Shown piece after piece: positions 5,501 through 19,655 of a DNA stretch of 64,000 nt. Both the position numbers and the translations under genes were made by a program. The stretch lies in the IMG/VR virus record IMGVR_UViG_3300028608_000006, positions 124,001-188,000 of that record, one strand, 5' to 3'. Numbering within the stretch: position 1 is the stretch's first letter; every line of letters starts with the position of its first letter. The DNA is from a virus. Below the pieces are notes generated by a model. That model saw nothing but the letters and a program-made list of their open reading frames with translations, was not told the DNA's origin and searched no databases.

Positions 5501-5553
5501 GATATGGATTCTTTATGAAAAGTCTCAATGGTCTACAGAATGAGGCAGGGAGT

Positions 5554-6558
5554 ATGAACTTAATCAACCATCTGGGTGTCGGCACCGTTGCCAGTACCAA
5601 GCAGACCAACACCGATGAAATCATGGTGTACCTGCCTAGCATGGCACCCGCAGCTGATGGCCGTGTGGTTGCGACTGCTAAGCAGGTCGAGAAGAAAAGC
5701 GAGAACGCGTACGGGGAGGAGACTACTAGCCGTGTACTGACGTCCAACACCTTCCCCGCTAAGTGGCGTTCCATGGGGGATAGCAACCGGATCACCCCAC
5801 CGGATGTTCGTGAAGGCAGTCAGGTTTCGATCTACCAAGTGAGCGGTCAGAACACTTACTACTGGACCACGTTCGGTATCAACGCCGAGACCATGCGTCT
5901 GGAAACGGTGATCATGGGTTATTCGGCTAACCCACAACAGTCCGATGACACACCTTTCAATATCGACAACTTCTACACCATGACGGTCTCTACTCACGAG
6001 GGCTTTGCTGCGTTCCGCACGACGCAAGCCAATGGCGAGAAGGCAGCCTTCGAAATCAAGGTCGATGGCAAGAACGGCAAGGTCATGGTGGGCGGCAGTG
6101 CCGGTAACTTCCTCGTTAAAGACGACGTCGCGCACTCGCTGACTTATGTGAACGCTGACGGCAGCATCTTTAACATCGACAAGAAGAAGATGAACGTCTA
6201 CGTTAAAGACTCCATCACGTTCAACGCCGACGAAGCATTTAACATCCTGACGAAGGTGTTTAACCTGAAATGCGAAAGTATTAACATTCAGGCTGATACT
6301 GCTGACATCCGTATCGGTGAAACGACATGGACGGGCAACATTACCCAGAAGGGTAACTACACCCAAGACGGTGACTTCGATCAAACCGGGGATTACACCC
6401 AGACCGGTGATTACGACCAGACGGGTAACATTACTTCTTCTGGTACAATTCACGCTGCCATCGATGTAACATCCTTGGTCAGTTTGAATTTGCACATCAC
6501 TACTGGCGTCAGAGGTGGTCCAGATCTCTCCGGTCCTCCAATGCCTACAGGCGGTTAA
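5554..6558 (+). CDS. tail spike / baseplate hub protein with beta-helix (gp5/gpV-like)
   Basis: 334 aa. It is probably the membrane-puncturing spike at the tip of the contractile tail. The start at 5554 is chosen over the ATG at 5515 because GAGGCAGGGAG precedes it. Residues about 85-130 (PPDVREGSQVSIYQVS, then YYWTTFG) look like the OB-fold domain of gp5/gpV proteins. The second half has short beta-helical strands (NLKCESINIQ, ADIRIG), then repeats of the type GNYTQDGDFDQTGDYTQTGD. The end resembles a spike tip, LHITTGVRGGPDLSGPP, but with one histidine where such tips usually have His-x-His. The gene ends at a strong hairpin. Confidence 0.75.
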   Translation: MNLINHLGVGTVASTKQTNTDEIMVYLPSMAPAADGRVVATAKQVEKKSENAYGEETTSRVLTSNTFPAKWRSMGDSNRITPPDVREGSQVSIYQVSGQNTYYWTTFGINAETMRLETVIMGYSANPQQSDDTPFNIDNFYTMTVSTHEGFAAFRTTQANGEKAAFEIKVDGKNGKVMVGGSAGNFLVKDDVAHSLTYVNADGSIFNIDKKKMNVYVKDSITFNADEAFNILTKVFNLKCESINIQADTADIRIGETTWTGNITQKGNYTQDGDFDQTGDYTQTGDYDQTGNITSSGTIHAAIDVTSLVSLNLHITTGVRGGPDLSGPPMPTGG

Positions 6559-6615: not shown

Positions 6616-9501
6616 TTAGAACACGTCGCGTTGGGTAAAGAACTGGTTAGGTCCGTTAGCACCATCGTCAGTGAAGCAAGGGATCGCTGTACCACGACGA
6701 GACGCACTAACAACGTGGTTACTCATCACCAGGTAATCCTTGCTTTGTTGCAGAACACCGTTGACCGCAATACCGAACATCACTTCGTTGTTTGCCACCT
6801 CACGACGAACCGAGGAAGCAACTACTTGAAGTACGTCACCCAAACGGATCAGGTAGCAGTATACCGTCCCGACTGTCCCGACCTTAAGCGCCAGCTCTTG
6901 ACCAATGAGGAACGCTTTACCGCCCAGCATGACACGGCCACCCGAAGGAAGACGAATCCAGCCAGCTTCATTGATGTTGAACTGATCGATCGAGGTCACC
7001 CCGTTGACTTCCAACATTCTGCACGTTAGCGCGGTGTTGGTAGGGTCGTACTGGTAGATACCCTTGTTAGGGATCTGGAGTGACGGGAGGAGTTCTTCCA
7101 CCAAATCGATCTGAGCCGTGCCCGCATACAGCCGAACAGGGTTAAGCTTGTTGGGGGCAAACACCGGGAAGGTGGATGTCTCGAAGCCTGTCACCGTGAA
7201 ACTCACATCACCGTAGTTGTCGCCGAAAGGACGAGTCGCCACGATGTTGAAGTTGTTCGGTGTAACCGATGCGATCTGCAAGTCAGCAAAGTTCATCCAG
7301 ACGTTATCACCCGAACCCGACTCACGGTTACCCGCAGCAACGGGACCGCTGGCCAACGTGATAGGTGTCAGTGCTACACCGTTGGTAGGCTTGAAGTCCA
7401 GCGTGATGATGTTGTTCGTCACCGCATAACGTGCCGATGCCGCTTCTGCATAGCTCACGCCATCAGAGATGATGACAATCACTTTGTTCAGCGACACTGC
7501 GAAGATCTGAATCTCAACCTTCCGCAACGAGTCCAACACACCCGGGTTCAACACTTTAGCCCGGTCCATCACGCCACGAGACACACCTTGAAGGCTGAGC
7601 ATGCTCGAGATGGCCACAGTAACGTCAGCCCCTACGCTCAATACCCCGTTCACGTAACTGATGCTGGCTTTGCCGATGTGGTTGTTGGTCCCCGTAAACG
7701 CCAGACCATTCATCCCCACGCCCACCGACGACTTGTACACAGCATTCACAACCGACTTCGGGAAAACCCCGAGGTTGGAGACTGGGCTGCTAACTTCCGG
7801 CAAACGAACGCCGAACACACCGTCACCCGTCTGAGTACTGATGATGGACGTATCGTTCCATGTCAGTCGAGACCACCCGAACAACCCTGTGGAAGGATTG
7901 AGACCGTAGACCAGATACTGCGTTTCCGCCGCGGTATGCAACACCGGGATGATACGCTCTGGCAATGGACCGAACGGACTATGACGACTTGGAGCAAACA
8001 CTTCAGTAGAAGCATCCGCCGGGTTGATCACCGGACGTTTAGCCGTCATCCAATCTTTCACACCCTCGTACTCGGTGCGGTAGCGCTTAACCCGCAGAGC
8101 CAACTTGGTGCTTCGTGCTTTAACGATCAACCCCGAGTTCAACACCGCGCCAGGAGACTGGGTAATGTTGTTCAAGTCAAATGGGTTGTTAACGGTAAAG
8201 TAGTCAGAGTCCACTACCGGTAACAGTTCAGCGTCCAAAGTATCCTTGACACGAGTGCCGAGGGTTTTGAAGATTGCCGAACCACCCGATCTCAATGTTC
8301 CCGGAGTGATGGACTCGGTAAACGACAGCACCAGCTTACTGGTCTTCGCGCCTTGTGTTACAATCAATGCAACACTGACATTCAGGTAAGCTTCGAAGTC
8401 AACCGCATTCCACACCAAGGTGGTGATCACATCAGGGCGAGATGGATCCGCCGCAATGGTAGCGCCAGCCGGCAGCGTGATGAAGTCAGTCAGGTTGTAG
8501 CTGTGAGACCCGTTAGCAGGTCCGGCCGACAACGTGTTACTGATACGATCGAACTGAGCGGTGTATGCGTTGGTGATGGTCTCCGTCAGACTAGGCGCTG
8601 TGTCAGCCGCGTTCGCATGGAAGAAACGGTGATTGATAGTAATGACACCACCTGCCAACGATGCCGTGATTCCCAGACCCTTATAAAGGGCGCTGTTGAA
8701 GTTGTTGTACAGCAGGTAGTTACGGTTACCCGCTGGCAACGGCAGAGTGGTGGCGAAGTTGTAGATCCTCCGATCGCCCAATGGACGGAAGAAAGCCACC
8801 TTACCGTCAACTGTATCCCCGCCTGTCATGTTCCAGTTGGTCCCAACGTAGCGAGAAACCAAGTTGGTGATTTCGCTAAGACGAGCACGGGACAAACCTT
8901 TCAGTGGCAACCCCACAAACATGAGCTGTTTGCTGTAGTACGGGTTATCCGACTGAGGGGAGTAAATCAAACGATCCCCGTTGATCAGAATTGGGACACG
9001 ACCGTTGGACACCAAGAAACGACTTGGTTCCGGTGTAGCCGGAGGAGTCGTCTCGTAGTCGTCCGGGTAGTAGTACGACGCGAACTGGAATACACCATTA
9101 CGCTGATACAGGTCCAAATCGAACTCACCGGTGTTAGCGTCCAGCGCGGCTTTGGCCCCAGCAGGCGTTACAAAGGCGTTCACGTTGGCGTAGCTAGAAG
9201 CCTCAGCCGGTGTGGCGGGTCGGAAGTTATCCTTCTTACTGAGCCCCACAGTGGCTTTGGTTTCGCCGTGCACCGCACCCCGTTTAGCGATGTGGGTGTC
9301 GATCGGAGTAACCGTGGCATTAATGAACGCCGTTACATGGGTGTCCAGTGCCGCGATCTTTTCTGCCACGTTCTTGTTGAACTGGGTTTGCCGATCCTCT
9401 TTCTCAACCGCCATCTCGTTGAGCTTCTGGATCACTGACCCGAAGGCCGGTTCCGGCACCTCTACGAAAGGAGGTTCTGCTATAGGCCTGACAATAATCA
9501 T
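6616..9501 (-). CDS. large tail-fibre-like protein (961 aa)
   Basis: 961 aa. The ATG at 9499-9501 is preferred to an upstream TTG because it has ACGGAG before it. The N-terminus (about 25-90) is helical and charged, and the rest is beta-rich with many Asn, Thr and Gly, as in trimeric fibres or spikes. The last 100 residues (from VMLGGKAFLIG to about GTAIPCFTDDG) can be aligned with the C-termini of the next two giant proteins (compare GTAVTNDRQILTIER and KRGNSIP), so it shares a C-terminal module with them. It lacks their N-terminal domain. It would act outside the virion in adsorption. Host receptor and enzymatic activity cannot be read from the sequence. Confidence 0.65.
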   Translation of the reverse strand: MIIVRPIAEPPFVEVPEPAFGSVIQKLNEMAVEKEDRQTQFNKNVAEKIAALDTHVTAFINATVTPIDTHIAKRGAVHGETKATVGLSKKDNFRPATPAEASSYANVNAFVTPAGAKAALDANTGEFDLDLYQRNGVFQFASYYYPDDYETTPPATPEPSRFLVSNGRVPILINGDRLIYSPQSDNPYYSKQLMFVGLPLKGLSRARLSEITNLVSRYVGTNWNMTGGDTVDGKVAFFRPLGDRRIYNFATTLPLPAGNRNYLLYNNFNSALYKGLGITASLAGGVITINHRFFHANAADTAPSLTETITNAYTAQFDRISNTLSAGPANGSHSYNLTDFITLPAGATIAADPSRPDVITTLVWNAVDFEAYLNVSVALIVTQGAKTSKLVLSFTESITPGTLRSGGSAIFKTLGTRVKDTLDAELLPVVDSDYFTVNNPFDLNNITQSPGAVLNSGLIVKARSTKLALRVKRYRTEYEGVKDWMTAKRPVINPADASTEVFAPSRHSPFGPLPERIIPVLHTAAETQYLVYGLNPSTGLFGWSRLTWNDTSIISTQTGDGVFGVRLPEVSSPVSNLGVFPKSVVNAVYKSSVGVGMNGLAFTGTNNHIGKASISYVNGVLSVGADVTVAISSMLSLQGVSRGVMDRAKVLNPGVLDSLRKVEIQIFAVSLNKVIVIISDGVSYAEAASARYAVTNNIITLDFKPTNGVALTPITLASGPVAAGNRESGSGDNVWMNFADLQIASVTPNNFNIVATRPFGDNYGDVSFTVTGFETSTFPVFAPNKLNPVRLYAGTAQIDLVEELLPSLQIPNKGIYQYDPTNTALTCRMLEVNGVTSIDQFNINEAGWIRLPSGGRVMLGGKAFLIGQELALKVGTVGTVYCYLIRLGDVLQVVASSVRREVANNEVMFGIAVNGVLQQSKDYLVMSNHVVSASRRGTAIPCFTDDGANGPNQFFTQRDVF

Positions 9502-9562
9502 AGCGCTACTCCGTGTTGAATGTGGAGAGACCAAGGGGGATTGCTCCCCCGTGACCTATTTG

Positions 9563-12500
9563 TTACGGCAACAGCTCCGCTGCCCGCAGGAAGACGAATG
9601 TACCCGCGTCCTGTGGCAGACCGGTGCTGATTGGAATGATACCGCCCTCACGTGTGTAGCTGAGGAGGTACTGACCGACCATCAAAGGTTGGTGACGAGT
9701 GATCGAGAGGATCTGTTGACCGTTCGTCACGATCGTTGCCGCTTTCAGCAGGTTGCCCGACTTACGCAGTTTGGTTAGGGTCACCAGGTATTTAGGCTGG
9801 TCATCTTCCACCGTTGCGTAAATGTAGAACGTTTTGTTTTGTGGGGCAGGGTCGATGTCACGCAGATCAATGGAACCACCCGGCATAGCGTACGCCGTAC
9901 CATTCACCATCATCCGGATGTTGTCTTGCAGGAAGAGAACCCAACCTGTTTCCGGATAAGCCGATCCAAGCATGTAGTAGTCAATGCTCGTGTCAGCATT
10001 GGTCTTCTTCACGATTGCCGCAGCTCCCCCGGTGTTAACGTAAGGCTGAGGGTTGGCGGGGCTGATTGTGGTGTTGTCAGGCGTTGTTCCGCCTAGGGTA
10101 ACGTCAAGCATACCCACCTTAGGGATCATGGTCACTATGTCGCCGTACCCCCAGCTAGCATTGCCCCCGTAGACACCCGTCACTTTGTTAGTGGCGAGAT
10201 CAACATCAAACAGGCAAAGCTGCTTGGTGTTAATGGTGCCCGTCGTTACCGTCGAGTACGGAGCCAGCACGTAGACTTTCAGCTTGGTGCCGTCGCGATA
10301 GATCGACACGATGGACTTGGGTTTGGTCCCGCCGTTAACCAGCAGGTTGGTCTCACCCATCTTCACGTTGACCGCCGTACGGACATGCGGAGGCGCATCC
10401 AGCACCGTGATATCTTTGATCCAGTGCACCCCAGGGTGATCGGCGTTAGGCGCTTCCACCACCGGGGTGAACAGAACCACCTGAGTCCGCGTCTGAGACG
10501 CATCGGCGTCAAAGAAGTAGATCAGAGCCAGACCAACGTTGAGACCCTTGAACATCCCACCCGATTCGTTCCCCAAGATATTAAAGCTGAAAGCCCAGTA
10601 CTTGGTGTTTTGGAATTCAGCAGGGATCATCGCTTTAAGCTTGTCGATGATGTTCTGACGAATGCCGTAGAACGTGTCAGCCGCATACGTGGCCTTCTTC
10701 AGCCCGTTATCCAGCGTCCGAGTCACCGTCCGTGGAAATGACAGCAGCACATTATTTCCCGCCGGAGCCCTCAGCACGTTTGTGCGCGGAAGCGTCTGAC
10801 TTGCAGTAACGTAAGACGACCATGCACACGCACTGAAACTAGTGCTCCCACATTCCACTCCACCAGCCGTCAGCTCCGCCGCCGTACCGGTTATCCCGAT
10901 GACGATGTCGCTATGCGGAAGGTTGGTTTCATAGACGGTGTTCGAGAGAGGTCGGGTCTTCAGATCAGGCAGGTTCAAGTTCGTAATTCCCGGCCGCACC
11001 TGATACCCGCCCGAGACAAGCCGGAGGTACATCTTCCGGTTACCCGACTTCATGTCCTCCGCCCCGTACAACTCCCCATCCGGCTCATACGTCATGGCAG
11101 CTGGATAGGTGCCGCTGAGGATAGGAGAAGACAGCACTGGGTTCAATACACGACGAAAAGTCAGTGGTGAATCAGTGACCTTCATGGAACCGGACAAGAC
11201 CTGTGCTGCTGAGGGTTTGTCTTTCCAGCGTGTTACTTCAACAACGGTCGGGAAGGCGTTACCATCCGCAATCGTACCCGTTACGAGGTCGCCGTTATCC
11301 AGCATCACAGTACCACACTGCGTCGCTTGGAACGTAGAGTTGTAAAGGTATCCGTAATGCAGGTCCATGTACTGCGCACGTTCTGTAGCTGTGGTATCCG
11401 TGAACCCAACGCTGATGGGAGGAGCCTTATTGATTTGAGTCAACACGCCAGTGGCCGGATTGATCTCATACCCGATAGTGCTGATCAGACGAAGGTTGAT
11501 GTTCTCCCCTACGTCGGAGTAGAGCACGACGTACCCCATGATCAATTGCAGGTAACTGACAGCGTTATTCCCTGGCTTAGGGCAAGAGATCGTTAAAGAC
11601 CGCCCGCTCTTAGTCATGGAGGTAACACCCTGACGGAATGTCCAAGGACCGGTTTTAATGATCTTGTTGGCACCATCCCGAACGATCGGGTTAGGAACCA
11701 GCGAATCAGCCGCCGTAAACAAGGTTCCGTTCCAGTCAGTATAGGTAACCTTGAGTGGTTGCCAAGTAACTGGCAGGCCAGCCTGTACGTCAGCAACTGG
11801 AACCCGGAAGAACGCGTAGGCATCTGTGTAAGCTGCCCCGAAGTTCTGAACCAACACTAGGTAATCGCCCATGTGGTGAATCATCGCCCGGCTTTGACTG
11901 TTGTACGGGACATTACTGAACAGTTTGTTTACTTCGACCATGTTGCATTTAACGAAACGGTGAGCCGATGGGTCAAACGTAGCGTTGGTCAGGCACAGGT
12001 ACCAATCTGTCGAACTCGGGCGTCCGACCATCAGCACTTTGTGGTTACTACCACCCATGATCAGTGTCGGGTTAACCCCGATAGACGACAGCGATGGCGG
12101 AGCGTACTTAAAGCCGGTGTAGATGATCTTGCCACCTGGTTGGTCATAGTTCTCTACGTACGAATAGTAGAGACCTTCCTGACGACCATCGAAGTGGTTG
12201 GAGAGCATCATGAGAAGTCCGTTGTTCTCTAGGCAGAAACCAGCGGTCTCAAAGGTGGCACCCAAACCTTCAAACGAACCATCGATGTTCGGCGGGATAT
12301 AACTGTCGCCGGCAAAACGGCTAACCGGCATGATACCCTGATACATTGCGGCATCAGTATCCGGCTTGTACGTCTTCGCCAGCTCAGCCACACCGAATGG
12401 CGTACTGAACGCATCACCCCGTACACCCGCCAGTTCTTCCGCCAATGTAGCAGTGGGGTAGTTGGCGTGGTTACCGAGGAGGATGTCGAACTTGGTGGTG

Positions 12501-13150
12501 CCATGCGGAACGCTGTAGTTCTCATCGTGAGCTTTCAGCTGGGCCAGACGGGTTACCTTTGCGGCCTTCAATCGATCGAACGCACGACGCGCCGCCGCAC
12601 TGACCTTGTTGTTGGCTTCCGGGTCACGGGTCAGAGAGACCTTACCCAGATAGATGAAGAACCACGTCAGCTCGTACCAGTCCGAGATCTCGGTCTTGAT
12701 ACCGTGCATGTGCAGCGAAGGCGGTAGGGTTGGAGGAACGTCGAACACCTTGGACCAAGTCAACGGACGAACACCGTTCTTGATCTTGTCCATCCAAGCT
12801 TCGAGGTCGTTACGGGGAACGAAGTAGGCGCCAATGCTCTGATAGTCAATCTTGATCTGAGTGTTGGCGTCCAGAATGTTTTGAGGCAGCCGAATGAACG
12901 TCTTGATCGACCGACCCGTTACTTCACAGAAGGGAACGAACTCTTCTTCGAGGAAGTAGTCACGGTTCAACTTCATGACCGCGCCACTTTGGTTGTAGAC
13001 GGTTACTTTGGCGGGTTCAGCGAAGAAGGGCGAACCATTTGGAATAACCCACTGACAAGTTTTGTCGGTGAGCTTAACGATTTCCCCGACAATAGTGTTG
13101 ACGGGTTCAGTGCCATGAATGTCAAACTTTACCAGTCTGATAGGTTCCAT
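9563..13150 (-). CDS. giant tail/baseplate fibre protein, paralogue of the next gene (1195 aa)
   Basis: 1195 aa and paralogous to the 1191-aa protein at 13217-16792. Residues about 35-150 form the N-terminal domain shared with that protein and the 245-aa one (NGSPFF at 39-43, then PPSLHMHG with H147 and H149). Next comes YIPPNIDGSFEG followed by ETAGFCLENNG, nearly repeated in the paralogue. A long beta-rich body follows, and the C-terminal block is GSIDLRDID, KTFYIYA, then a final AELLP. AAAAGG precedes the ATG. The N-terminal domain probably fixes the protein to the baseplate while the rest projects. This is inference from shared modules. Confidence 0.65.
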   Translation of the reverse strand: MEPIRLVKFDIHGTEPVNTIVGEIVKLTDKTCQWVIPNGSPFFAEPAKVTVYNQSGAVMKLNRDYFLEEEFVPFCEVTGRSIKTFIRLPQNILDANTQIKIDYQSIGAYFVPRNDLEAWMDKIKNGVRPLTWSKVFDVPPTLPPSLHMHGIKTEISDWYELTWFFIYLGKVSLTRDPEANNKVSAAARRAFDRLKAAKVTRLAQLKAHDENYSVPHGTTKFDILLGNHANYPTATLAEELAGVRGDAFSTPFGVAELAKTYKPDTDAAMYQGIMPVSRFAGDSYIPPNIDGSFEGLGATFETAGFCLENNGLLMMLSNHFDGRQEGLYYSYVENYDQPGGKIIYTGFKYAPPSLSSIGVNPTLIMGGSNHKVLMVGRPSSTDWYLCLTNATFDPSAHRFVKCNMVEVNKLFSNVPYNSQSRAMIHHMGDYLVLVQNFGAAYTDAYAFFRVPVADVQAGLPVTWQPLKVTYTDWNGTLFTAADSLVPNPIVRDGANKIIKTGPWTFRQGVTSMTKSGRSLTISCPKPGNNAVSYLQLIMGYVVLYSDVGENINLRLISTIGYEINPATGVLTQINKAPPISVGFTDTTATERAQYMDLHYGYLYNSTFQATQCGTVMLDNGDLVTGTIADGNAFPTVVEVTRWKDKPSAAQVLSGSMKVTDSPLTFRRVLNPVLSSPILSGTYPAAMTYEPDGELYGAEDMKSGNRKMYLRLVSGGYQVRPGITNLNLPDLKTRPLSNTVYETNLPHSDIVIGITGTAAELTAGGVECGSTSFSACAWSSYVTASQTLPRTNVLRAPAGNNVLLSFPRTVTRTLDNGLKKATYAADTFYGIRQNIIDKLKAMIPAEFQNTKYWAFSFNILGNESGGMFKGLNVGLALIYFFDADASQTRTQVVLFTPVVEAPNADHPGVHWIKDITVLDAPPHVRTAVNVKMGETNLLVNGGTKPKSIVSIYRDGTKLKVYVLAPYSTVTTGTINTKQLCLFDVDLATNKVTGVYGGNASWGYGDIVTMIPKVGMLDVTLGGTTPDNTTISPANPQPYVNTGGAAAIVKKTNADTSIDYYMLGSAYPETGWVLFLQDNIRMMVNGTAYAMPGGSIDLRDIDPAPQNKTFYIYATVEDDQPKYLVTLTKLRKSGNLLKAATIVTNGQQILSITRHQPLMVGQYLLSYTREGGIIPISTGLPQDAGTFVFLRAAELLP

Positions 13151-13170
13151 TGCGTTAGCCTTTTAAAAGA

Positions 13171-13202
13171 GAGAGGAGGAGGGGTTCACCCTGCCTCCTC
13201 TC
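13171..13202 (-). terminator. hairpin followed by TTTT
   Basis: GAGAGGAGG at 13171-13179 pairs with CCTCCTCTC at 13194-13202. On the minus strand TTTTAAAAGG follows directly. It lies between the two paralogous giant genes and can act as a partial terminator. The AAAAGG is also the SD of the downstream gene. Confidence 0.5.
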
Positions 13203-13216
13203 CAACACGTTGTTGT

Positions 13217-16200
13217 TTAAGGGAGAAGCTCACCAGCCGTTAGCCAAGGGATCTGACCTTCGGTGTTCGCCAGACCAGAGGCCGCCGGGATACTGTTACC
13301 CCGTTTAGTCTCGGTTACCCGGTGACCATCCAGAGCAAACACGTTAAACCGCTCGATGGTTAAGATCTGACGGTCGTTCGTTACCGCCGTTCCCACCCAC
13401 AGTTGATAGTTGGTCTCCAACCGCTTGTCACGGGAAACCTCATACACCGGAATGCCGTTATCCAGCTTGGCATAGATGTAGAAGGTCTTCCATTGTGGAT
13501 TCGCATCGATATCCCGCAAGTCGATTGAACCCAACGGTAGCACGTACAGCGTGCCGTTGAAGATGACGTTGATGTCCGTCTTGAAGAAGATCACCCAGCC
13601 GACTTCAGGATACACCGACCCAACCAAGGCGTTGTTAGCGATACCCTCCGAGATAGTAGCAGCACCACCCGTTGACAAGTCCCAACCCCGCATCACCTGA
13701 ATCCCGTTATCCGGGCTCATCATGATACCACCACCCCGACTGGTGTGCTCCACATACGTTTCGTAGTTCCAGGCGTGCGAAGCGGTACGGTCGTTGATGG
13801 TGAAGGTATGGTCCAGAGAGTAGGCGTCACCAGGAACCTGTGCCATCACACCTGTGCCGTGATACACCGTCAGCTTGTTGCCTTCGAGGTAGTACTGAAC
13901 GCGCATCGGACCGTGGGTGGTTTGCGGAGTTTCCCACTGGATCCCGTTACCGAAGATCCGCAGGATGTTAACCCCGGCACTTGGTTTCCGCACATGCACC
14001 TTGTTGATCACAGTGAACCCAGTGACCACGTAACGACCGCCGCTGGTCGTGTAAGTAGGCTGGATCGTCATGAACGTGTGGAACAAGGTGGTCTGGTCTG
14101 GTGTGCCGTCAGCATCGGTGTACTGAATAGACACGGTCACCGGTAGCCAACCAAACTTCGCAGGTAGGTTGGAGAACGTAGGATCACACACCGTCACATG
14201 ACGAGCACGACCACGGTTCATGATGGCCGGATATTCCACCTGAGCTTTCAGTGCCTCAACAATCCACTCTTGGTACAAGAGTTCCAACGTCGGAACAATG
14301 GTAATCGTACCATCTGGTTCAGTGCGACGAGTGTGCTGTTGAACAAGGATGATATCCCCGGCCGCTACACCACCAGGCCATGCGGTACCCTTCATCTCGC
14401 GGTCAAAACTCTTCTTCTGTGAGTTAACACAGAATTGAGATTCACCCACATCCACACCGTACGTACTGAGATAAGCCGACGGCACCACCACTGTTGCTCC
14501 GCCCAAACCGAACGGTGCATTCACCTTGCGGATGTTGTTGGTCAGTGGACGAGAAACAATGTTGCTCATGAACAAGTTCTGAATGTCCGACCGATAAGCG
14601 AAACGCCCCGATACAGTCTTCCAGTACAGTTCGAGCTGCGTTGCGATGGTTCGGTGAGCAGCAATGTAGAACTCACCACCTGGGTTGTACAGCAATGCCC
14701 GCGGGTTAATCCCCGACTCTGTTGGTGTTGTTACCGTTTCCGGAATCAAACCAGCGTAATAACCGAAAGGGAGTTCGGACCCGTTGCCCCAGAACTTGTT
14801 CACTGTAGCAAAGCGGGTGTTGGTGGTGGCGATCTTGCAGGTGAACGCCGCACGTGGATAACCTGTAAACCCGTAAGCGCCGGCCGACACAATCCGCCCA
14901 TCATCCAAGATGTTACCACCTTGCGCCTGATAGAAGTACACCTGATAGGACATGCTGGATGCGTGACGATACTGAGCCGGGATGATGTTGCCGTTACCCA
15001 GCCCGAAGTTAGCATTCCATGCCGCCGTCCGGTGTTTGTAGCTGAACACACCCGTATTCGGGTTGAAGTCGTAGTTCAGCTCCTGCATGTAGTCGATTGC
15101 GGCGTTCACCGTTTCACTGACGTAAGCGAAGTAATGCGCACCCAGAAACTTCACAGCATAGCTGTTAGGATTGTTGGGGTTCTGCGCTACGTGGGTGATC
15201 AGGCTCCGATACAGCCCGATGGCGTTGTTACAGGGATAAGGCGAGAATGTCAGGATAGCTTTTGTTTGATGACCGTTGCCGTCAACTACCGGCTGGTACC
15301 AGCGGAAATACGGACTGTTGTTCCACTGCAAGCCATCCGCGTCCAAGAAGGAAACGTTCTGTCGAACAGGAGTCACATCAATCTGTGCTTTGATGCTGGA
15401 GATTGGTACTCGGAAGAAAAACTTATAACGCAAATCCGAAAACTGGTTCCATGTATCTGACGGCACGCCTGTGGAAGCTGACAGGATCACGTAGACCCAA
15501 TCACCCATCACGGCAACACTGATCAAGTTGAACAGTTCCGTCACGGTGTGTGCGCCAGGGTTCGTCGAGATCGCATCGACCAAAGGCCGCAGGTTGATCT
15601 TCGAGTAAACGTGCTTTGCCGGGTCCAAAGAACCGTTGGTCATCCCGATGTAGAAGATGTCCTTAAAGCTGTCGCCCACCAGAATGCATTCGTTACCGCT
15701 ACCCTGCGCAATACGGTCAACGCTGGCATTGTCCGGGTCAAAACGAGGGTGCTCGTATTTAAAGCCAGTGTACGTCAACAAGGCGCTTCGTTCTTCAGGA
15801 TCCGTAAGAACAGAGAAGTACAGACCACGGGTACGACCGTCCATGCGGTTCCACAGCACAGTGATCGAACCGTCGCTCTCCAAGCACATGCCTGCGGTTT
15901 CGATCACACCCCCGATGCCTTCAAACGAACCGTCAATGTTGGGAGGAATGAAGTTGGTGTTACCGAATTGAGCCACCGGGAGCATCTTCGCTTCCAAGAA
16001 CTCGTCAGCGTTGAAGCCATGGTACTCGATGATGCTCTTCAGCTCTTGAGGACGCAGGTGCATGTCCTGACGCGCTTGCAGGATGTTGGCTGGTGTTGCA
16101 GTGGCGAAGTTGTCCACCTTGTCCAGCTGCACGTCCAGTGCGGTCAAACCGTGGGCGTCGTACGACTCAGAGTGACGAACCAGGAACTGATCCAGCATGT

Positions 16201-16792
16201 TGCCGTAGACACCGATGTACCAGTCGACCAACTCCATGAAGTGGGTCAGACGACGTTCGATGATGTCCAAGCCCTGTTGTTCGATCAACACTTGCAGCTC
16301 GCTCAGGAAGTCGATCGTGTCTTGGAAGGCAACGATGTCGTAGAGTACGCTGTGGGTGTGCAGGGTTGGCGGAAATACCGAAGGCTTGTTGGACAGGTTC
16401 TCCCAGTACACAGGACGGTCGTCATTAATAGCGTCAATGATCAACGCCATCATGGTGCTGTCGAGCAGAGGGAATTCCCCAAGGACGTGGTAAGAGAGGG
16501 TCCCTTCGGTGATCTCTGGTTTCTTGAGAGTCACCAGACACGCCACTGGTTTACCTACCAGTTCCGTCAGGCGCGGCATGATTCGGAAGATCTCGTAGTC
16601 TTCGTTCAAGATCATGGGCTCGCCGTTGGGGTGTTTCAGTTTCAAGCTTTCTACAAAGAACGGTGAATGACGAGGCACGATGACACGAGTAAACACACCG
16701 GCAGCCACAGAGAACGGTTCGTCGTAGATCTCGTTCTCTGGGTTGCTACGGTTGATATCGGTCCTGTATTCCTGAACAATGGGGAATTGCAT
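13217..16792 (-). CDS. giant tail/baseplate fibre protein (1191 aa)
   Basis: 1191 aa. The N-terminal domain (about 30-150) contains RHSPFF at 41-46 and PPTLHTHS with H145 and H147, at almost the same place as in the 1195-aa and 245-aa neighbours. A helical linker (150-260) precedes FIPPNIDGSFEG and ETAGMCLESDG. The body is beta-rich. The C-terminus GSIDLRDIDANPQWKTFYIY, then GTAVTN and KRGNSIP, ends in AGELLP, matching its paralogue. AGAGG lies 8 nt before the ATG. It sits 11 bp after the 245-aa gene in the same direction, so the set is probably one late operon from 17541 to 6616. It is likely an adsorption structure. Confidence 0.65.
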   Translation of the reverse strand: MQFPIVQEYRTDINRSNPENEIYDEPFSVAAGVFTRVIVPRHSPFFVESLKLKHPNGEPMILNEDYEIFRIMPRLTELVGKPVACLVTLKKPEITEGTLSYHVLGEFPLLDSTMMALIIDAINDDRPVYWENLSNKPSVFPPTLHTHSVLYDIVAFQDTIDFLSELQVLIEQQGLDIIERRLTHFMELVDWYIGVYGNMLDQFLVRHSESYDAHGLTALDVQLDKVDNFATATPANILQARQDMHLRPQELKSIIEYHGFNADEFLEAKMLPVAQFGNTNFIPPNIDGSFEGIGGVIETAGMCLESDGSITVLWNRMDGRTRGLYFSVLTDPEERSALLTYTGFKYEHPRFDPDNASVDRIAQGSGNECILVGDSFKDIFYIGMTNGSLDPAKHVYSKINLRPLVDAISTNPGAHTVTELFNLISVAVMGDWVYVILSASTGVPSDTWNQFSDLRYKFFFRVPISSIKAQIDVTPVRQNVSFLDADGLQWNNSPYFRWYQPVVDGNGHQTKAILTFSPYPCNNAIGLYRSLITHVAQNPNNPNSYAVKFLGAHYFAYVSETVNAAIDYMQELNYDFNPNTGVFSYKHRTAAWNANFGLGNGNIIPAQYRHASSMSYQVYFYQAQGGNILDDGRIVSAGAYGFTGYPRAAFTCKIATTNTRFATVNKFWGNGSELPFGYYAGLIPETVTTPTESGINPRALLYNPGGEFYIAAHRTIATQLELYWKTVSGRFAYRSDIQNLFMSNIVSRPLTNNIRKVNAPFGLGGATVVVPSAYLSTYGVDVGESQFCVNSQKKSFDREMKGTAWPGGVAAGDIILVQQHTRRTEPDGTITIVPTLELLYQEWIVEALKAQVEYPAIMNRGRARHVTVCDPTFSNLPAKFGWLPVTVSIQYTDADGTPDQTTLFHTFMTIQPTYTTSGGRYVVTGFTVINKVHVRKPSAGVNILRIFGNGIQWETPQTTHGPMRVQYYLEGNKLTVYHGTGVMAQVPGDAYSLDHTFTINDRTASHAWNYETYVEHTSRGGGIMMSPDNGIQVMRGWDLSTGGAATISEGIANNALVGSVYPEVGWVIFFKTDINVIFNGTLYVLPLGSIDLRDIDANPQWKTFYIYAKLDNGIPVYEVSRDKRLETNYQLWVGTAVTNDRQILTIERFNVFALDGHRVTETKRGNSIPAASGLANTEGQIPWLTAGELLP

Positions 16793-16803
16793 ACCTAAAC
16801 CTC

Positions 16804-17541
16804 TTAATCGATTTTCAGTGTGCCCGCGACAAGCTTACGGAACGCTTCCTTGAGGACGGCCATGGTGATGTACTTGTTACCGCTGGCGCCTTCGAGGTCG
16901 GCGTTAGTGGCAGGGCCAATGTTCTCCACCAAGTCGAGACCGATGTCTTCGGCACTACCCATGTGGGCTTCGATGAGTGGAGCAGCCATGTGCTCTTCCA
17001 GCAGTGCTTTAACTGTCAGGCCTTGGCTCTGGTCAGTGATTGCCAGCACAAGGCTGCGCAGGCTAACCATCATTTCCAGGTAGTCGTAAGTCTGGGTCGC
17101 AGGGTGAGTGTGTGGGTCGCTTGGGAACTCGGTCGGTACTTGAACCAAGTCTTCCCAGTTAGCCACACGCGGGCTGTTGATGATGTTGGCAACCAAGGTG
17201 GCAAACGCGATTTGATCCAATACAAAAGGACCACCAATGGTGCTGTAGTCGGCCTTCAGCACTTCGTTCGGCAACGGCTTGAGCATGATCACCGAACCGA
17301 AGCAATTGCGCTTGTAGCCCGTGATGAAGCGGTCGAAAGTATGACCGAACACGTAGTCAACGCCGAATACCAACGGGGTTGCAGTGCCCTGACGCCACAG
17401 CTTGAAGTTCTTGCCGAAGAAGGGTGCAGCACGCGGTACCCACTCAACACGAGTAGTGATGCCAGCGGTTTTGATTACTTCTTGTTTGATGTCGTTGTCA
17501 ACACGTTCTTGAAAGGGGTTCCAAAGATAAGTGATAGCCAT
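16804..17541 (-). CDS. short protein sharing the fibre N-terminal attachment domain
   Basis: 245 aa. Residues 30-150 match the N-terminal domain of the two giant proteins downstream: PRAAPFF at 36-42, a tyrosine-rich strand near 63, NWEDLVQVP near 129, and DPHTHPA with H144 and H146. After this it has about 95 helical residues and ends, so it has no fibre body. It may be a trimeric adaptor or cap on the same baseplate site, or an ancestor or remnant of the longer paralogues. SD TAGGAGTG precedes the ATG. It is the first gene of the fibre operon and diverges from the gene at 17663 across 121 bp. Confidence 0.6.
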   Translation of the reverse strand: MAITYLWNPFQERVDNDIKQEVIKTAGITTRVEWVPRAAPFFGKNFKLWRQGTATPLVFGVDYVFGHTFDRFITGYKRNCFGSVIMLKPLPNEVLKADYSTIGGPFVLDQIAFATLVANIINSPRVANWEDLVQVPTEFPSDPHTHPATQTYDYLEMMVSLRSLVLAITDQSQGLTVKALLEEHMAAPLIEAHMGSAEDIGLDLVENIGPATNADLEGASGNKYITMAVLKEAFRKLVAGTLKID

Positions 17542-17662: not shown

Positions 17663-18901
17663 ATGTACACTTATCGAAGGGCTGTTGGTATTAACCTACA
17701 GGTCCCCCGAGGAGAAGAGCTTTTAGATATTTCAGCGGTGCAGACAAAACAACTTTTTGCTTTGTACAGCGATCTCATCATCGTGGTGACTGACAGCTTT
17801 GCTAAACGTGACGTTGCTATCGACGCCGCTAAGTATCAAGACGAGCTTGGTCTCTTTGTTGGGACGATCCAGGCGTGGCTCAACACCAAGGCCACGGTCC
17901 CGTTGATCACCAGCAATACCCTGCCCGGAACCGAATACCGCTTTGTGACCACTCACGATATCCAGTACGAGTGGTTCACCCTCCTTCCAGGTGATGCCCG
18001 CATCTCTGAAGACCGGCAAAACCTGCTGACCAAAACCTCCGCTCCTGATATCCGTGTCGCCAAGACCGATAACACCGTGGTCGATTACGAAGCCTTGGTG
18101 AAGCGTTGCCTGTGGACCATCAACGGCCACTTGGTGCGTGCGGTCAAAGGTGATCGGAGTGTTTACCTGTTGAATGCCGGCAAGCACTTTAACGTGGATG
18201 ATAACGTCCATGTCAACTCGCTGAACTTCAACACGGTGTCCACCCTCAATACTTATCCCATTGCCGCTGAACAATTAGAGTTCATTGACCACGACACTTA
18301 CCGCTCTTTGCGAGTGGACTTGCCGGTGTCGCTGGTAGGTAAGACGGTGTGGATGTCGATCGGTGGTCGCTTGTACCTCAATGACGTGGTTCAGGTAAAC
18401 GGTCCTAAGGGTGTGACTATCCGGACTGAGAAAGTGGATTGGTTCTCGCGGATCTTTGACTCGAAAGAATTGATCGACCTGACCTCGGTGATTGATAAGG
18501 ATCGCCAAGTGGTTGGTAAAGACTTCTTCCAGACCGAAGAGTTCTTCACGAAGCTGCTGACGGACCCCTCGTCCTTCTTCATCATTCTGGACAACCCGCA
18601 TCTGTACGTGGATCTGCAACCGATCACGAGCTATGCTTACCCCTTTACGTTTCATACGGAAGAAACGAGACGTATCCCGTTGATGGTTGGTAATGGACTG
18701 CTGCCAAAATACTTCACCCGTAGACTTATTAACCGGAGGCTACTCGACATTGACATTGGCGTTCATAAGCGTTACCTCAACAAGACTACCGGTATCCACA
18801 ACGAGGGGGAACTCTTTCATGGATACACCAATCGGTATACCCCAAGCACCCTTCTAGAAGGGTATCTCCTTTACATACGCGGTCTGATTCAAGAGGCTTA
18901 A
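17663..18901 (+). CDS. unknown, probable virion protein (412 aa)
   Basis: 412 aa, not recognised. It has a mixed alpha/beta character, with no membrane segment or catalytic motif. AAGGAG precedes the ATG at a spacing of 9. It opens a plus-strand unit with the spanin genes (3 bp to the next ATG) and ends at the hairpin near 19700. Divergence from the fibre operon and grouping with lysis genes suggest late expression. A tail or baseplate role would fit the setting, but no motif shows it. Confidence 0.55.
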   Translation: MYTYRRAVGINLQVPRGEELLDISAVQTKQLFALYSDLIIVVTDSFAKRDVAIDAAKYQDELGLFVGTIQAWLNTKATVPLITSNTLPGTEYRFVTTHDIQYEWFTLLPGDARISEDRQNLLTKTSAPDIRVAKTDNTVVDYEALVKRCLWTINGHLVRAVKGDRSVYLLNAGKHFNVDDNVHVNSLNFNTVSTLNTYPIAAEQLEFIDHDTYRSLRVDLPVSLVGKTVWMSIGGRLYLNDVVQVNGPKGVTIRTEKVDWFSRIFDSKELIDLTSVIDKDRQVVGKDFFQTEEFFTKLLTDPSSFFIILDNPHLYVDLQPITSYAYPFTFHTEETRRIPLMVGNGLLPKYFTRRLINRRLLDIDIGVHKRYLNKTTGIHNEGELFHGYTNRYTPSTLLEGYLLYIRGLIQEA

Positions 18902-18904
18902 CCT

Positions 18905-19450
18905 ATGGTGGCTTTACTTTCAGGTACTTTCTTTTCGGACAAGGTCCGATCAGCGATTACCATGTTCCTACTCACCCTGTTGCTCGGGCTGGCTTGCTTT
19001 CAGTATTTCTTCCCCCGGCACACCAACACACTCGATGCAGCAACGATCGAGTCCTTGCGTGACGTGCGCGGTCAGCTGGAACGTGTGGCAGACAACCTGG
19101 AAAAGTCCAGTGAGTCACAGGCCGCTCTGAACAGTACCCTAACCCGGCAACTTGATGTCGCCAGACAGGTGCAGAATGAAGGCTATGCGAATCTCCTTAA
19201 GCAGTATGGGCTTGATCTTTCTTTGCCTAGTGCTAATACCGATGACCCTTTCGGGCTGCGGACACCAGACCACAATCTCGGAAGGGAACTTGTACCTCCA
19301 AGCCCAGGCTCAACAGGTACAGATCAACTCTTACAAGACCCAGCTGAAGTCCACAAGGGAAAGACTGACCCAAGTCATCCCCCAGGTGCGGAGCGACAAT
19401 CCGGAACCACCCAAGTCGTTGCTGGCGGACCTCACGACGTATCTGGTTAA
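18905..19450 (+). CDS. i-spanin-like (Rz-type) inner-membrane lysis protein
   Basis: 181 aa. A short cytoplasmic start is followed by one membrane helix (about 18-36, ITMFLLTLLLGLACFQYFF). A charged periplasmic helix comes next (about 45-100, DVRGQLERVADNLEKSSESQ), as in i-spanins that span the periplasm and pair with an outer-membrane lipoprotein. From about residue 90 the gene overlaps the lipoprotein gene in another frame. Its tail there is Pro/Gly/Ser-rich and of low complexity, a usual effect of Rz/Rz1 overlap. AGAGG precedes the ATG. Role: fusing inner and outer membranes in the last step of Gram-negative host lysis. Confidence 0.7.
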   Translation: MVALLSGTFFSDKVRSAITMFLLTLLLGLACFQYFFPRHTNTLDAATIESLRDVRGQLERVADNLEKSSESQAALNSTLTRQLDVARQVQNEGYANLLKQYGLDLSLPSANTDDPFGLRTPDHNLGRELVPPSPGSTGTDQLLQDPAEVHKGKTDPSHPPGAERQSGTTQVVAGGPHDVSG

Positions 19451-19655
19451 CAACGACTGCACCACGTTCCCCGCTACTATCAAGGATCAGTGTTACAAGG
19501 CGACTCGAGTCAAGTTGATTGAGATCACCCGATTACTTGATTCGACGAGGATGAACGAATACGCTGGACAGCGCACCATCGTTCAATTGATTGCGAGCAT
19601 CAACACGCTGATCGACAGCATGGCTGATACGCAACCTCTTAAACCTCCCGAGTAG
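19176..19655 (+). CDS. o-spanin-like (Rz1-type) lipoprotein
   Basis: 159 aa from the ATG at 19176 (AGG 6 nt upstream; ATG 19155 is also possible). A signal sequence ends in the lipobox LSGC with Cys28, so the mature protein should be lipidated and sent to the outer membrane. The rest is helical and charged, with two further cysteines (NNDCTTF and KDQCYKA) that could form a disulphide. It starts inside the i-spanin gene and runs 205 bp past its end, intermediate between embedded and separate spanin arrangements. It is long for an Rz1 protein. Assignment rests on lipobox, overlap and partner. Confidence 0.65.
   Translation: MKAMRISLSSMGLIFLCLVLIPMTLSGCGHQTTISEGNLYLQAQAQQVQINSYKTQLKSTRERLTQVIPQVRSDNPEPPKSLLADLTTYLVNNDCTTFPATIKDQCYKATRVKLIEITRLLDSTRMNEYAGQRTIVQLIASINTLIDSMADTQPLKPPE

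Follow-up and report, generated by a model that had tools for sequence, protein, structure and literature searches.

A four-gene fibre set in an EL-like giant phage: its module map and a candidate metal-binding motif

In published accounts, phiKZ gp131 is placed at the baseplate periphery by immunogold labelling (PMC5105663), and its C-terminal part, PDB 4GBF, is described as a seven-bladed propeller of that location (PMC4901313, PMC5105663). SPN3US gp168-170 are described as resembling phiKZ gp131, and a tailless mutant lacks them (PMC5694885). phiKZ gp131-gp135, SPN3US gp168-170 and ORF113-115 of Pseudomonas phage EL each form a multi-copy set beside a homologue of gp130, and the genes described here are arranged in the same manner.

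T4 gp37 is grouped with the R2 pyocin as tail fibres that have an HxH metal clasp. The fibre shaft of R-type pyocins (R1/R2; PDB 6CL5, 6CL6 and 6CT8) contains the stem motif W..l..KP..FPP..HxH. In crystals of the R1 and R2 pyocins, the HxH of the three chains forms an octahedral site for iron or a divalent metal on the three-fold axis, and in R2-pyocin fibres one metal ion is held by six histidines from three chains (PMC6116203, PMC6363177).

The DNA analysed here, termed the window, is a stretch of 64,000 nucleotides (positions 124001-188000) from a virus record of 231,788 bases. No nucleotide relative of the window was found among annotated phages; the closest protein matches are to phage EL and to the Erwinia phages RisingSun and Joad. 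Between 3035 and 18901 the gene order is that of EL ORF112-118. The gp130/ORF112 homologue (17663..18901, plus strand), whose SPN3US homologue is essential and a possible baseplate/fibre protein, is followed by four fibre proteins on the minus strand, i.e. those of 245 aa (ORF113; 16804..17541), 1191 aa (ORF114; 13217..16792), 1195 aa (ORF115; 9563..13150) and 961 aa, counted from the ATG (ORF116; 6616..9501). A baseplate assembly (spike) gene (ORF117; 5515..6558, plus strand) and an SbcC-like gene (ORF118) come next. The 245-aa protein is 58% identical to its EL counterpart. RisingSun, FishSpeaker, Miami, OBP and N1M2 have the same order, with the gp130/gp112 homologue on one side of the fibre set and the spike and SbcC genes on the other.

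A sequence-only reading of this DNA had proposed a modular fibre set in which an N-terminal domain is common to the proteins of 245, 1191 and 1195 aa, and a C-terminal block to the two long ones and the 961-aa protein. Its coordinates and histidine numbering are exact. By BLASTP alone, the 1191-aa protein matches the 1195-aa (E 3e-93) and the 245-aa protein (E 5e-10), the 245- and 1195-aa proteins match at E 0.001, and the 961-aa protein has no significant match to the other three. Relationships were extended with hhalign, using profiles for which viral contigs and phage records supplied the sequences, with reversed and column-shuffled profiles as controls (n=14; best E 0.056 for the 245-aa and 0.025 for the 961-aa protein). 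Residues 9-236 of the 245-aa protein align with residues 13-257 of the 1191-aa protein (E 1.5e-19) and with residues 15-260 of the 1195-aa protein (E 2.1e-12), and the common N-terminal domain is thus upheld. This anchor domain comprises aa 1-122 (17176..17541), 13-122 (16427..16756) and 15-124 (12779..13108) of the three proteins, in order of length; these and all further module positions are on the minus strand.

The list of parts assigned to each protein was partly wrong. The 245-aa protein is more than an N-terminal domain, since its alignment continues past the HxH through a neck module (aa 151-236; 16834..17091) with two invariant histidines, H184 and H193. The corresponding necks are at aa 156-280 of the 1191-aa (15953..16327) and aa 160-288 of the 1195-aa protein (12287..12673). 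The 961-aa protein was thought to have the C-terminal module only, but it holds a neck that had been missed: its residues 20-147 (9061..9444) match those of the 1191-aa (E 1.3e-8) and 1195-aa (E 1.8e-10) proteins. As to the long pair, they do share both the N-terminal domain and the C-terminal block, but their homology is not limited to the two ends and runs the whole length (E 2e-170); they are full-length paralogues. The C-terminal block is located at aa 1008-1170 of the 1191-aa (13283..13771), aa 1010-1175 of the 1195-aa (9626..10123) and aa 792-942 of the 961-aa protein (6676..7128). The last of these is a real but weaker match, which aligns with the 1191-aa block at E 2.8e-4 and scores above all 14 controls (48 vs a best of 32).

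In a genome-wide search the anchor domain was detected in these three proteins only, and the neck in the fourth as well. Pfam searches with the four proteins and their extended relatives assigned the anchor to no family. Across orthologues, the protein ends are better conserved than the bodies. In one related contig (L063:11618-18874) the 1195-type fibre gene is tandemly duplicated, with products of 1202 and 1200 aa.

The anchor connects the set with the described systems. A single-sequence phmmer search from the 245-aa N-terminal domain finds phiKZ gp131 (E 3.2e-13) and gp135 (E 4e-4), and the N-domain profile detects gp131, gp133, gp134 and gp135. Tandem paralogues beside a gp130 homologue, a feature of the phiKZ gp131 family, are also found here. 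Because the N-terminal domain is present in phiKZ gp131 and SPN3US gp168-170 resemble that protein, these are fibres of a known kind; on sequence grounds the set belongs to the phiKZ gp131/SPN3US gp168-170 family, of which the SPN3US proteins are known as 'paralog family C'. The four neighbouring genes are a good example of this already known family, and the cluster as a whole is very probably best explained as baseplate-fibre genes of an EL-like giant phage. There are differences, however. The phiKZ copies are shorter, and gp131, as the accounts of that protein give it, ends in the seven-bladed propeller of 4GBF, whereas the set described here includes a bare anchor of 245 aa and two members of about 1190 aa with another propeller-like body. 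In addition, phiKZ gp131 has HxQ rather than HxH.

Each of the three anchor-bearing chains has exactly one HxH over its full length, compared with a chance expectation of about 0.29 per 1000 residues; the 961-aa protein has neither an HxH nor the anchor domain. The pairs H144/H146, H145/H147 (16352..16360) and H147/H149 (12704..12712), numbered as had been proposed, occupy one aligned position, which follows a Trp...Pro segment; in the 245-aa protein the motif W129...P136...H144-x-H146 is at 17104..17169. An N-domain profile run over the fetched loci yielded 139 anchor-containing proteins from phiKZ-like phages, 114 after removal of near-copies. In an alignment of these with the window, the residue at His144 is His in 112/114, that at Pro136 is Pro in 113/114 and that at Trp129 is Trp in 105/114. 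His146 is less constant: it is His in 95/114 and Gln in 10, and is replaced in 19/114 (17%) by Gln, Val, Thr, Met, Leu, Glu or Phe. Loss of the second His, most often to HxQ, is seen in all three paralogue groups, where His is nonetheless the majority residue (34/43, 30/35 and 31/34). In Serratia phage 2050HW (Moabitevirus; L023), both recognised copies of the anchor domain are without the second His (HxV and HxT).

The HxH lies in a fibre stem with a W..P..FPP context, as in the HxH metal-clasp tail fibres. Profile searches of PDB match the motif to phage fibre 9d93 (E 3.2e-9, profile A1) and weakly to the R2-pyocin fibre segment WNALPGKPATFPPSAHNH (6ct8) and to 6cl6 (E 0.08-0.1, over the 20-residue motif alone); outside the HxH motif, the N-terminal domain has no PDB sequence match. 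The likeness to the R-type pyocin is limited to the motif of about 20 residues, which is distal in that fibre but lies near the anchor in the present proteins. Two tandem W..P..FPP..HxH copies are found in PDB 9d93 ('Tail collar fibers, gp4'), which has no match beyond them. Since the segment matched is the one that holds metal in the pyocin crystals, a metal ion on the trimer axis can soundly be inferred for these fibres and is, by analogy, probably present. The W..l..P..fPp..HxH segment, just past the N-terminal domain, would be the meeting point of the three chains, and the six histidines would most likely clasp a single divalent metal, probably iron, at the three-fold axis. To judge from the R2 pyocin, such a clasp may fix the register of the chains and lock the stem. 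The metal does not seem indispensable to the family, as 17% of its members, phiKZ gp131 itself among them, have lost the second His.

This variation raises the question of whether HxH is a conserved packing element of a stem turn that binds no metal, the first His being structural and the second optional. Both the disparity between the two sites and the loss in the two copies of 2050HW are in keeping with such a role. It is nevertheless rather unlikely, as the same W..l..KP..FPP..HxH motif is a metal holder in the R2-pyocin crystals and His prevails at the second site in every paralogue group.

Structure prediction for the 245-aa protein (30 sequences, mean pLDDT 80) gives a small beta domain with helices after it. 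Among viral predictions, the domain recurs in numerous fibre proteins of giant phages (54 matches with an E of 0.001 or less), and compared with PDB it has no significant match. N-terminal domains of the T7 gp17 type (7boz, 7ey9, 8vbx, 7y22) are the recurrent top Foldseek class, at E 0.06-1.5, with each match alone not significant. A collinear hhalign comparison with 85 such domains scores 21.3 vs a control maximum of 15.1, which at E 0.007 and a probability of 6% is also not significant. With a best Foldseek E of 0.06 and these hhalign values, homology to T7 gp17 is no more than a lead.

For the 1191-aa protein, the model (48 sequences, mean pLDDT 79.5) has its confident part at about residues 280-1150 and is beta-rich. 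Its HxH region has a pLDDT below 50, as is to be expected when a single chain of a trimer is modelled. The modelled body (aa 281-1007; 13772..15952) resembles beta-propeller glycosidases and the P. aeruginosa pseudaminidase in Foldseek, with a probability of up to 1.00. The TM-scores are low (0.13-0.15 of the query), and therefore the propeller resemblance is one of fold class only. No sialidase Asp-boxes were found in this body, and identification as a sialidase was dropped.

Taken together, the modules suggest how the fibres may be built. The shared N-terminal domain would dock the fibre on the baseplate, and the neck, a helix followed by an H...AHG.T...gL...N...AT segment, is homologous among the four proteins and may prolong the stem. 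The large, beta-rich, propeller-like bodies of the 1191- and 1195-aa proteins could bind or trim the host surface, with the common block at the end. Because its first module is the neck, the 961-aa protein must attach otherwise, perhaps to a different fibre. The 245-aa protein consists of the anchor only and has no part for receptor binding. The attachment machinery of EL- and phiKZ-like phages is poorly known, and a clean module map with a conserved metal-site candidate is thus of value for their fibres.

Some relatives of the bare anchor are not bare. L006, the closest relative at 80% identity, has a protein of 618 aa: the anchor is followed by a Pro-rich linker and a tip that matches tail-fibre families of PHROGs, and the extended gene is followed by one whose product, of 175 aa, is Tfa-like (PF02413, E 2e-8). 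The anchors of L046, L057 and L058 are also extended, with a Tfa gene in L057 too, and Miami has a GH28 tailspike at the anchor position. A search of the present genome for the collar tip and Tfa of L006, which had no positive control, gave no match. When the two forms are mapped on a tree built from the long fibre next to the anchor, 29 of 34 lineages are bare and the extended form requires five changes, which suggests that the tip acts as a swappable cassette. Judged from these gene sequences, tip plus Tfa has been gained or lost repeatedly behind one conserved anchor. The scattered cassette points to how these phages could swap receptor parts yet keep the baseplate joint. A tentative reading is that the 245-aa protein is a tipless, metal-clasped socket kept on purpose, to which tip and Tfa are repeatedly added and from which they are stripped, and which may also join the two long paralogues as a partner chain of mixed trimers.

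The partner role can also be taken further, with the three anchor-bearing paralogues forming hetero-trimers or a mixed ring and the 245-aa chain being a structural partner and not an independent fibre. Anchor, HxH and neck are at matching positions in all three, and the three genes are kept together in a fixed order. But homotrimers are the rule for fibres of this type, and the tip and chaperone borne by the 245-type protein of relatives suit a separate fibre; such co-assembly is distinctly unlikely. That the 245-aa protein is a decayed, non-functional fibre that lost its distal part is very improbable, for although the 80% identical relative has 618 aa and a Tfa, the bare form is an intact reading frame with 50-86% anchor identity across many lineages, EL and RisingSun included, and predominates in the tree.

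Two observations concern the neighbours of the set. EL and others have HxH at the apex of the spike protein (LNLHIHGGV); the spike of the window (5515-6558, plus strand) ends in ...LNLHITTGV..., and the second His of the apex is also gone in the relatives L051, L052, L053, L060, L062 and L065. On the other side, at 18905-19655 (plus strand), overlapping open reading frames resemble an i-spanin, with an N-terminal membrane segment, and, in another frame, an o-spanin with a lipobox-like LSGC. Spanin genes are annotated at the equivalent place in phage Miami.
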